A stretch of 33,218 nucleotides of DNA from Polaromonas sp. (GTDB lineage Bacteria; Pseudomonadota; Gammaproteobacteria; Burkholderiales; Burkholderiaceae_C): positions 1 to 33,218 of the forward strand of contig JAIPCZ010000028.1 of NCBI GenBank assembly GCA_021737975.1, read 5' to 3'. Below are positions 31,003-33,218 of this stretch, in pieces. Made by a program: the position numbers and the translations under genes. Every line of letters begins with the position of its first letter. Position 1 is the first letter of the stretch. The notes beneath the pieces are model-generated. The model was given only the letters and a program-made list of their open reading frames with translations. It was not told where the DNA came from and ran no database searches.

Positions 31003-32184
31003 AGCCTGCCCGAGCCGCGCAATACCTTCCTCGATCCTGGTGACATCGGCGGTGGCGAAGCTCAGGCGCAGCGTGGCCGGATCGGGGTCGTGCGCATAGA
31101 ACGGCGCACCCGGCACGAAGGCGACCAGCTTGTCAATGGCGCGCTGGGCAAATTCGGCAGCGTTGGCAGACTTGCCATGTGCTCCGGTTAACCGAGCCCA
31201 AAAGAACATGCCGCCCCGGGGCTGGTTGAATTCAATCGCATCACCCAGCTCGCGGCGCAGGGACTCGGCCATGACCCGCGCGCGCTCGGCATAGGTCTTG
31301 CGCACCACGGCCAGGCTGGTGTCCAGGCGATTGAGCGTCAGGTAGTGGGCGCAGATGGCCTGCGTGAGGTTGCTGGTGTGGGCGTCGCTGAACTGCTTGC
31401 ACATGGTGGCTTTGGCCAGCAACTCGGGCGGCGCGATCATCCATCCCACACGCAGGCCGGGGCTCAGAATCTTGCTGAAACTGCCACAGTGCGCCAGCCG
31501 GTCGCGGCTGCCGGGAACCCCGTCGCTCAGGGCCAGCAGACTGGGCGGCGGCGGGGTGTCAAAGTAAAGCTCGCCATAGGGGTCGTCTTCGACAATCAGC
31601 GTCTGGGTGCGCGCGGCAATTTCGAGGATGCGCCGGCGCCGCGCAAGGCTCAGGGTGGCACCGCTCGGGTTGCCAAAGGTGGGAATCAGGTACACCAGCT
31701 TCGGCTTGTGCTGGTCGATCAGGGCTTCCAGCTTGTCGACATCGACGCCGTCGGCATCGATCGGCGCGCCGATGATGTGGGCGCCATAGAGCCGGAAACA
31801 CTGGATCGTGGCCAGAAAGGTGGGCGCCTCCACAATCACCTTGTCGCCGGGCGAGATCATGGTCTTGCCGATCAGGTCGAGCGCCTGCTGGCTGCCGGTT
31901 GTGACGATCAGGCCCTCGGGCTTCACCGTGGCGCCCTTGTCCGCCATGAAGCTGCCGATGGCCTCGCGCAGCGGCTGAAAGCCTTCGGTGGCGCCGTATT
32001 GCAGCACCGGTCCCGGGTTATTGGCCAGCACCGCGGCGCTGGACTGGGCGATGCCCTCGGCGTCAAACAAAGCCGGGTCGGGAAAGCCGCCGGCAAAACT
32101 GATGATGCCGGGCTTGCCCAGCAGCTTGAACAGCTCACGGATGGCAGAAGTTTCGATGGCATTGAGTCGATCGGCAAATTGCAT
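30997..32184 (-). CDS. PLP-dependent class I/II aminotransferase
   Basis: A 395-aa fold-type I aminotransferase. Markers are FAGGFPDPALFD near the start, the VTTGSQQALDLIGK helix, VEDDPYGELYFD with the Asp that pairs to the PLP ring nitrogen, and the PLP Lys in GSFSKILSPGLRVGWM. A late FWARL strand carries substrate residues. It is closest in feel to the LysN/2-aminoadipate or aromatic-type aminotransferases fused in MocR proteins, but has no HTH. The substrate is not clear from sequence. I chose the ATG at 32184 (MQFADRLNAIETSAIREL); a longer reading to 32451 would overlap nth. It is divergent from nth with an 88-base gap. Confidence 0.9.
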   Translation of the reverse strand: MQFADRLNAIETSAIRELFKLLGKPGIISFAGGFPDPALFDAEGIAQSSAAVLANNPGPVLQYGATEGFQPLREAIGSFMADKGATVKPEGLIVTTGSQQALDLIGKTMISPGDKVIVEAPTFLATIQCFRLYGAHIIGAPIDADGVDVDKLEALIDQHKPKLVYLIPTFGNPSGATLSLARRRRILEIAARTQTLIVEDDPYGELYFDTPPPPSLLALSDGVPGSRDRLAHCGSFSKILSPGLRVGWMIAPPELLAKATMCKQFSDAHTSNLTQAICAHYLTLNRLDTSLAVVRKTYAERARVMAESLRRELGDAIEFNQPRGGMFFWARLTGAHGKSANAAEFAQRAIDKLVAFVPGAPFYAHDPDPATLRLSFATADVTRIEEGIARLGQAL

Positions 32185-32272
32185 GGGATAAGCTCGGAAG
32201 AATGGATGCCAAATTGTCACCGATGATTCGCACCTGCCAAACCCTTGTTTACCCAGCTTTTCGATTGAACGC

Positions 32273-32917
32273 ATGAACGCCACCGCTGTTGAAAAATTCT
32301 TCGCCACCCTCGCCGCCGCCAACCCGCAGCCACAAACCGAGTTGAAATACAGCAGCGTCTTCGAGCTGCTGACGGCCGTGCTGCTGTCGGCCCAGGCCAC
32401 CGATGTCAGCGTCAACAAGGCCACACAAAGCCTGTTCCTGGTCGCCAACACGCCGCAAAAAATGCTGGCGCTGGGCCTGGAGGGGCTGGAGCGTCACATC
32501 AAGACCATCGGCCTGTACCACAGCAAAGCCAAGCATCTGCTGCAGACCTGCCAGATCCTGGTGGATCAGCATCACGGCGAGGTGCCGCGCACCCGTGGGG
32601 CGCTGGAGGCGCTGCCCGGTGTGGGTCGCAAAACGGCCAACGTGGTGCTTAACGTGGCCTTTGGCGAGCCGACCATGGCGGTGGACACGCACATCTTTCG
32701 GGTCGGCAACCGCACCGGTCTGGCACCCGGAAAAAACCCTCTTGAGGTCGAACTGAAACTGCTCAAGCGTATTCCCGAGCCCTACCGCGTGTATGCCCAC
32801 CACTGGCTGATTCTGCTGGGCCGCTACGTCTGCCAGGCGCGCACACCCAAATGCTGGCAGTGCGCCGTGGCGCCGTATTGCGACTTCAAGGACAAAACGC
32901 CGCAGCCCAAAAGCTGA
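32273..32917 (+). CDS. nth: Endonuclease III (DNA glycosylase/AP lyase)
   Basis: A 214-aa base-excision enzyme that removes oxidised pyrimidines. The helix-hairpin-helix LPGVGRKTANVVL holds the catalytic Lys120, and VDTHIFRV holds Asp138, the same numbering as in E. coli Nth. The C-terminal iron-sulfur cluster is CX6CX2CX5C (CQARTPKCWQCAVAPYC). LSAQATDVSVNKAT is also conserved. The length is standard. It is divergent from the aminotransferase gene and is followed by the two structured repeat elements described below, with no other gene before the window end. Confidence 0.96.
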   Translation: MNATAVEKFFATLAAANPQPQTELKYSSVFELLTAVLLSAQATDVSVNKATQSLFLVANTPQKMLALGLEGLERHIKTIGLYHSKAKHLLQTCQILVDQHHGEVPRTRGALEALPGVGRKTANVVLNVAFGEPTMAVDTHIFRVGNRTGLAPGKNPLEVELKLLKRIPEPYRVYAHHWLILLGRYVCQARTPKCWQCAVAPYCDFKDKTPQPKS

Positions 32918-32951
32918 GCGAGCCCCAACGCGCCAGGCACTAACAACCCGA

Positions 32952-33054
32952 GCAGCGTGCGTTGGGTGTCTGGCGGAGCGAAGTCAAGGAGGAGGTTCGG
33001 GCGCCAGCCCGGACCGGGGGACATGAGCGCAGTCAGATACCCAATGCGCGCTGC
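32952..33054 (+). repeat. Structured element 1 after nth (possible ncRNA)
   Basis: Outer arms 32952-32974 and 33032-33054 form a 23-bp stem in which all four irregular pairs are G-U on the plus strand. Inside are AAGGAGGAG (32986-32994), a 9-bp hairpin (32994-33002 with 33007-33015, loop GCCA, one G-U) and GGGGGACA (33016-33023). A direct repeat GAGCGMAGTCA (32976-32986 and 33025-33035) flanks the core. On the minus strand the wobble positions would be A-C mismatches, so a plus-strand RNA is favoured. No known family is recognised. Confidence 0.65.
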
Positions 33055-33080
33055 AGCCTAAGCTTGAGGCGCCTACCCTG

Positions 33081-33171
33081 GGAGCCTGGGCGGCAGAGCG
33101 TTCTGCTGCGTGTCCCCCGCCCTGCGGGCTCCTCCTTTTACCTGCGCAGAACGCCCTGCCGCCCAGGCTCC
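33081..33171 (-). repeat. Structured element 2 after nth (inverted relative of element 1)
   Basis: Outer arms 33081-33106 and 33146-33171 form a 26-bp stem with one irregular pair, which is a G-U wobble on the minus strand and an A-C mismatch on the plus strand. Read on the minus strand the interior has AAGGAGGAG (33137-33129), a small CCCGC/GCGGG hairpin and GGGGGACA (33118-33111), the same two motifs in the same order as element 1. The outer stem sequences are unrelated. The remaining 33172-33218 holds nothing I can identify. Confidence 0.65.
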
Positions 33172-33218
33172 TGGCATCAAAGGGCGTCTTCCAGCCAGCA
33201 AGACGGTTCCTGGTAACG

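Follow-up and report, generated by a model that had tools for sequence, protein, structure and literature searches.

A probable REP/BIME-like hairpin family, folding on one strand around a covarying purine core, in Burkholderiales and Xanthomonadaceae

The 33,218-nt stretch of Polaromonas sp. DNA analysed here (the window) carries, close to its end, two nested hairpin structures in opposite orientation; both are probably copies of a new, non-autonomous, dispersed and mostly extragenic family of REP/BIME-like hairpins, on the folded strand of which a trans-acting enzyme would act. The hairpin family is large and real, and no name was found for it. Its copies are dispersed, lie mostly between genes and form divergent pairs; they are present or absent at orthologous sites, retain pairing on one strand far more than on the other, and include near-identical relatives, elsewhere in the host genome, of the second copy in the window. 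The features of the two copies are as follows.

32273..32917, + strand: upstream gene, endonuclease III-like, with the copy pair in its 3′ intergenic region
32952..33054, + strand: element copy 1, whole nested hairpin, from folding (covariance model match 32953-33053, 89.3 bits, E 1.7e-17)
32952..32974, + strand: copy 1 outer stem, 5′ arm (stem of 23 bp, four G·T)
32986..32994, + strand: copy 1 core, 5′ strand AAGGAGGAG, the last G of which closes the inner hairpin
32995..33015, + strand: copy 1 inner hairpin, which varies from copy to copy
33016..33023, + strand: copy 1 core, 3′ strand GGGGGACA
33032..33054, + strand: copy 1 outer stem, 3′ arm
33081..33171, - strand: element copy 2, of a recently spread subfamily, 91 nt (covariance model match 33085-33167, 62.7 bits)
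33146..33171, - strand: copy 2 outer stem, 5′ arm in its own orientation (stem of 26 bp, one G·T)
33129..33137, - strand: copy 2 core, 5′ strand AAGGAGGAG
33119..33128, - strand: copy 2 inner hairpin
33111..33118, - strand: copy 2 core, 3′ strand GGGGGACA
33081..33106, - strand: copy 2 outer stem, 3′ arm

The upstream gene is, judging from its sequence, presumably nth, and 47 bases separate copy 2 from the contig end (33218). A sequence-only reading of the window had described two opposed structures sharing a core within stems of 23 and 26 bp, and both the positions and the features are confirmed, including the observation that the irregular pairs of the two long stems (four in the first, one in the second) are all G·T on the motif strand. 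Absent from that reading are A·G/G·A mismatches between stem and core, which recur throughout the family. Folded as RNA, copy 1 reaches -70.2 kcal/mol (z -9.05) and copy 2 -71.4 kcal/mol (z -9.20), with none of 200 shuffles folding as well as either; folding is weaker on the opposite strands (z -4.14 for copy 1 and -8.79 for copy 2, the latter a slight difference). Folding as DNA likewise gives motif strands more stable than the opposite strands in both copies, in copy 2 slightly so.

One unit is about 85-110 nt long and is composed of a long outer stem whose sequence is almost free, a fixed core and a variable inner hairpin; the fixed part is internal, and no fixed GTAG or CGTC tag or foot was seen at one end. 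The arms of 138 copies pair in one register with 82% Watson-Crick pairs, compared with 22-32% in other registers and 39% when arms are swapped between different copies. These 138 were kept, from 244 elements with flanks, for having at least 55% Watson-Crick pairs at one register, so their pairing figure is raised by the selection; the 106 dropped elements include a +4 register type (copy 2 of the window among them), shortened copies and chance matches. Between stem and core, A·G or G·A occupies four positions in 77, 49, 88 and 82 of the 138 copies, the remaining copies having Watson-Crick or other pairs there. At four loci (L023, L031, L032 and L091, of which L032 and L091 are perhaps one and the same contig) the 5′ arm is broken near the core, at a similar position, by about 18 nt, TGGACTTGGGGTTTTGCC.

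An alignment of 59 chosen copies supports the same structure, which was set from those same sequences: 95.4% of its 1754 cells pair (54.6% in shuffles), both sides have changed in 681 cells (199 in shuffles), and no slid version of the structure is more than 41.5% paired. The covariation score is 1.011, against 0.230 when shuffled. One of five covariation measures, the number of pairs with any two-sided change, is no higher than in the shuffles (29 versus 28.4; 262 of 500 reach it). The folding of a specific strand under selection, which the sequence-only reading had proposed on the basis of the wobble pairs in the window, gains support from strong covariation. Of the outcomes that the reading had named as refuting it, two were checked, a lack of further copies and a lack of covariation, and neither came about.

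The core AAGGAGGA/GGGGGACA was found in 33 of 60 genomes including the host, these carriers being 32 of the 36 from the host's genus, the host among them, and one of 24 from other families, whilst the reversed-pattern control gave no match in all 60. Exact cores number 0-28 per genome; the host genome has eight, and the reversed pattern is absent from it. Stem-bearing elements number 174 (170 distinct) in 122 loci, with none in the reversed-sequence control. A scan of named genomes returned at least 120 stretches with the core pattern, named Burkholderiales and Xanthomonadaceae being represented; among the matches listed, paired stems are present in Rhodoferax, Variovorax, Hydrogenophaga, Ramlibacter, Acidovorax, Curvibacter, Rubrivivax, Sulfurisoma, Sulfuritalea and an Oxalobacteraceae strain, and, within the Xanthomonadaceae, in Stenotrophomonas, Thermomonas, Lysobacter (short flank), Luteimonas and a Xanthomonas MAG. 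Similarity to such named loci makes the host probably Rhodoferax-like. Core matches in other phyla are stemless and look like chance, except for contigs labelled Bacillus subtilis SK7B5; the elements on these (L103, L151) resemble Stenotrophomonas loci, so that assembly may be mixed or mislabelled. Since loci from the 60-genome, named-genome and viral scans were fetched by exact core, the conservation of the core in them is by construction.

A covariance model, for which 59 copies had been chosen, matched 13 of 300 genomes of the order (E 0.001) and four of 369 genomes of the class (E 1e-8), the host included in each; both are lower bounds, because only 13 and 11 candidates per genome, respectively, were scored. 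The distribution is patchy. Viral contigs hold 79 pattern stretches, with a stem-bearing element at two loci (L185, L190) in the structural scan and, by a looser count, a stem in three of 68 stretches with full flanks; with so few bearing stems, the viral matches are mostly chance. A blastn search of plasmid records with the window stretch gave no match. No Rfam family reached its curated score in the window (32000-33218), in eight host loci or in 16 other loci: on the window there were just microRNA models, far below their curated scores, and the one hit elsewhere is an unrelated glycine riboswitch in L103. In the open-licence literature, no description of the hairpin family was found, the papers listed for the core sequence words look unrelated by title, and none joined RAYT, repetitive extragenic palindromic and Comamonadaceae.

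The wobble pairs identify the strand that folds. On the motif strand the 138 copies have 294 G·T or T·G pairs and 34 A·C or C·A pairs, and the model-found sample has 119 G·T and 7 A·C. If the host mRNA were the folding strand, copies lying antisense to it should show the reverse bias; they do not, the G·T:A·C counts between same-direction genes being 89:3 in 41 sense copies and 94:4 in 41 antisense copies, all distinct (148:16 in the remaining copies). Hexamers resembling a -10 box at 0-1 mismatch were found in none of 41 pair spacers, compared with about four in single-base shuffles. With equal bias in sense and antisense copies, and spacers not enriched in -10-like sequences, the folding strand need not be mRNA, and the motif strand itself, whether ssDNA or the element's own RNA, is the favoured target of selection. 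The family is probably selected as a strand-specific single-stranded fold, for which we rank ssDNA above RNA; as a weaker alternative, the asymmetry could be partly mutational, with more C-to-T change on an exposed strand. Taken together, covariation and wobble asymmetry provide an unusually clean demonstration of which strand of a repeat folds, independent of host transcription, and the strand result points to a life stage as ssDNA (or element-own RNA) and to an unknown enzyme.

The core looks unpaired yet is not free to vary. In 78 model-found copies, position 5 of the 5′ strand and position 3 of the 3′ strand are A·G in 66, G·A in seven, C-G in three and A·A in two, and position 4 of each strand gives G·G in 73, A-T in four and A·G in one. 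At 0.35 and 0.25 bits, the mutual information of these two pairs is far above that of any other core positions (the next is 0.013); their Fisher p values, 1.4e-8 and 3.5e-6, treat the copies as independent, which is not the case. The sample represents 80 of 98 model matches from the order scan (11 host and seven other matches omitted), of which 78 were parsed and 75 are distinct, and the model behind it derives from copies in which the core had changed little. Four genomes from three families have the G·A swap (six distinct stems), as do three further named loci, and the A-T pair is found in two genomes (four distinct stems) and at one named locus; exceptions to the pairing rule are L027, L133 and L467. 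The covarying positions indicate that the core consists of two opposed strands joined mostly by purine·purine pairs. Both this covarying purine core and a strand-specific fold independent of host transcription are surprising. The idea of an anti-Shine-Dalgarno match in the core, also from the sequence-only reading, is weakened, because the variants AAGGGGGA, AAGAAGGA and AAGGCGGA break the match, most of them balanced on the opposite core strand, and because the 'unpaired' core itself covaries.

The genomic placement of 121 groups of copies, read with a simple purpose-written gene caller, comprises 64 gaps between tandem genes, 19 convergent and seven divergent gaps, nine positions inside called genes and 22 contig edges. 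Single copies in tandem gaps number 19 on + and 17 on -. The distinct neighbouring pairs within 600 bp (n = 48) are oppositely oriented in 47 cases, 44 divergent and three convergent, with one same-way pair; the core-to-core distance is 110-134 nt in 39 of the 44 divergent pairs. Partners share 44% of stem positions and random copies 39%, so that pairs do not stem from recent duplication of one partner. The three convergent pairs include that of the window.

Several copies occupy common places within operons, the genes of which we name from sequence and take to be those of a sugar-ABC binding protein and permease (L004, L010, L107), sucB-like and lpd-like genes (L003, L019), and pccB-like and pccA-like genes (L001, L012, L058, L086). 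These element-bearing operons recall E. coli malE-malF, which carries an intra-operon REP. At pccB-pccA, model matches are present in 10 of 30 same-genus loci, most others having a short gap and a few being rearranged, and a Hydrogenophaga has an element pair at the same place (the pccB-pccA and nth loci compared are the 30 best of 47 and of 55 genomes with a match, respectively). Pairwise comparison of the sense copies there (n = 9) gives 133 double and 112 single pair-keeping differences versus 67 broken pairs, and of the antisense copies (n = 14) 161 double and 314 single versus 93 broken; the pairwise counts are non-independent, and one antisense row (L310) is mis-cut, which inflates the broken pairs. 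That orthologous copies keep their pairing by compensation counts against a mobile reading, as it would be expected too if each copy had a function where it resides. Natural series of orthologous sites with zero, one or two copies are suited to tests of repeat origin and of retention in operons.

Evidence of movement is provided by sites occupied in some relatives. Downstream of nth, copy 1 is in place in three of 30 same-genus loci (the host, G003 and G021), and in G346 a short element-free gap lies ahead of what is apparently the same convergent gene (flanks compared by eye). Copy 2 is common to the host and G003, and in G003 an IS110-like end stands in place of its 5′ arm (again with flanks by eye). 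Elsewhere in the host genome the copy 2 subfamily is present seven more times: four copies are 95-96% identical over 84-91 nt, and three are partial pieces with 97-100% identity. One copy-2-type element adjoins a recJ-like gene; of 11 relatives, G340 and G351 share both flanks without the element, and the others have different downstream sequence or end early. Copy 2 probably landed beside copy 1 later, and this history, with copy 1 at its site after nth and copy 2 from a spread subfamily, may account for the convergent orientation of the window pair. Elements may decay by deletion, to judge from the coreless remnants L408 and the + copy of L321. No clear target-site duplication was seen in the copies compared by eye.

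The element core is itself a target of insertion, for at least one IS110 element and for a second repeat. An IS110-family element (PF01548, PF02371; its reading frame split in two) lies inside the core of a copy-2-type element, the loci concerned being L405 (host genome C12:64500-66500) and L339. The non-coding end of this IS110 element contains CCAAGGAGGAGC, which could be the target guide of a bridge RNA. A second multi-copy sequence, followed across 61-111 bases, ends in GGGAAGTCCCTGTA; at 10 of 11 places (L366-L376, in G007, G017 and G347) the element core, or a near variant of it, comes directly after, the eleventh place, L368, being doubtful. This second sequence is also present at L035, L037, L077 and L146.

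The search for a mobiliser bears on the possibility that the hairpins are REP or TIR elements of local Y1 (RAYT/TIRYT) transposases. RAYTs act on single-stranded hairpins, and within the host's genus 34 of the 36 genomes analysed have a Y1 (RAYT-like) match, as would suit such an origin; Y1 genes, moreover, are often flanked by REPs or TIRs in the account of Di Nocera et al. (PMC3733652). Against it, the covariance model found no match at 39 Y1-transposase loci, the element carriers G206, G222 and G034 have no Y1 match, and at least seven of the 39 Y1 genes are flanked by a different inverted repeat with a GGGGTCAG motif, so that we regard this origin as very improbable and do not link Y1 to the elements. 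The host genome, in an assembly 70% complete, also gave no Y1 match. The GGGGTCAG repeats fit the TIRs described by Di Nocera et al. (PMC3733652); those at L244-L246, L250, L253, L254 and L257 are close to TAATTGGGGTCAGATTCCAATTAA and form a separate, TIR-type set. An integron integrase was considered as mobiliser and is likewise not linked, being above cut-off in five of 14 carriers and two of six others. Amongst neighbouring proteins, the 25 largest clusters listed are, as far as nameable, metabolic genes or antisense frames. Across these searches no mobiliser was found, which weighs against the mobile reading, as do the patchy distribution, the low copy number and the lack of a clear target-site duplication.

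We return to the reading of a dispersed REP/BIME-like family, which is probable on the whole and agrees with the mobile family that the sequence-only reading had offered as one option: the copies are dispersed, mostly extragenic and mostly in inverted pairs, one subfamily has spread, and an IS110 element sits in a core. A trans-acting enzyme would recognise the motif strand as a single-stranded fold, most likely of ssDNA, through the core and its G·A pairs, and would copy or insert that strand, as RAYT enzymes are thought to do with REPs. The stem would need only to pair, and could thus drift with compensating changes. Some old copies may be kept in operons, where the stable hairpins of both strands could protect or divide mRNAs, a role proposed for REPs. 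In the window, copy 1 would be the element after nth shared with two relatives, and copy 2 a probable later arrival. A bolder form of this proposal, advanced tentatively, is a new class of mobile single strand in Burkholderiales and Xanthomonadaceae that would be read through a mostly purine·purine helix (AAGGAGGA/GGGGGACA with flanking G·A pairs) by an unknown enzyme independent of Y1/RAYT, leaving the stems free.

A structured regulatory or processing RNA, with each copy acting in the transcript of its neighbourhood as intra-operon stabiliser, attenuator or sRNA, would explain folding z scores near -9, the copies at common intra-operon places (pccB-pccA, binding protein-permease, sucB-lpd) and the compensating changes in place. 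It appears unlikely nonetheless, given that sense and antisense copies are equally frequent (41 and 41) with the same wobble bias (89:3 and 94:4), that pair spacers are devoid of -10-like hexamers (0 of 41 versus about four shuffled), and that no Rfam family was found at curated score in the stretches searched. Long quasi-palindromes can be corrected by template-switch repair, and neutral palindromes kept perfect from arm to arm in this way, without selection on the fold, would have arms that match each other and not those of other copies, as is the case here (39% Watson-Crick when swapped). Neither the excess of G·T over A·C pairs on one of the strands (294:34) nor the persistence of G·A pairs and of a core of purine·purine pairs is to be expected from such repair, however, and we find this explanation hardly credible.

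Amongst known systems, the integron attC site is also a strand-specific hairpin with fixed boxes and a free stem; the hairpin copies differ in being dispersed rather than in cassette arrays, and nine of 14 carriers have no integrase above cut-off. The Bordetella BRE repeat (Hot et al. 2011, PMC3110155) is the nearest possible prior description of the family, which would in that case already have been described as DNA. It is about 90 bp, usually intergenic, and listed in Bordetella, Azoarcus, Polaromonas, Rhodoferax, Acidovorax, Verminephrobacter and Delftia, with transcripts detected at one locus (PMC3110155), and so resembles the hairpins in size, placement and overlapping taxa. As described there, however, BRE is often tandem and was counted at >70% identity (PMC3110155), whereas one of 48 hairpin pairs is same-way and the stems do not match; set against this description of BRE, identity of the two is doubtful, more so than a role as structured RNA. 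In a survey of spaced motif pairs, Rhodoferax ferrireducens T118 had the most (140; Tong et al., PMC5217627).

The TIR families of TIRYT genes (Di Nocera et al. 2013, PMC3733652) are comparable in forming dimers, with self-complementary types in Stenotrophomonas maltophilia, and their shared motif as given there, GGGGWSAS, resembles the GGGGACA plus C or G of the hairpin family. They differ in that several Y1 genes here have their own GGGGTCAG repeats, the S. maltophilia TIRs being compared by description. REPs in the strict sense, of the GTAG/CGTC super-family, are palindromes of 20-40 nt with an unpaired end tag, unlike the present elements of about 100 nt with an internal core and nearly free stem; nor, at 39 Y1 loci, was a hairpin element found beside a RAYT-like gene, unlike REPs with a cognate, repeat-flanked Y1 gene. 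Copy number, at 0-28 exact cores per genome, is low against the >100 usual for REPs (Nunvar et al., PMC2817692). The likeness to REPs, BIMEs and REPINs is nonetheless extensive: as summarised by Di Nocera et al. (PMC3733652), REPs are extragenic palindromes that form inverted dimers; the two partners are often dissimilar, their spacer varies, and most lie between genes in tandem or convergent arrangement. Like the hairpins with their IS110 element, REPs are targets of insertion sequences (Tobes and Pareja, PMC1525189). With 47 of 48 neighbouring pairs in opposite orientation, and copies that are dispersed, mostly extragenic and palindromic, the hairpin family is REP/BIME-like in the broad sense.
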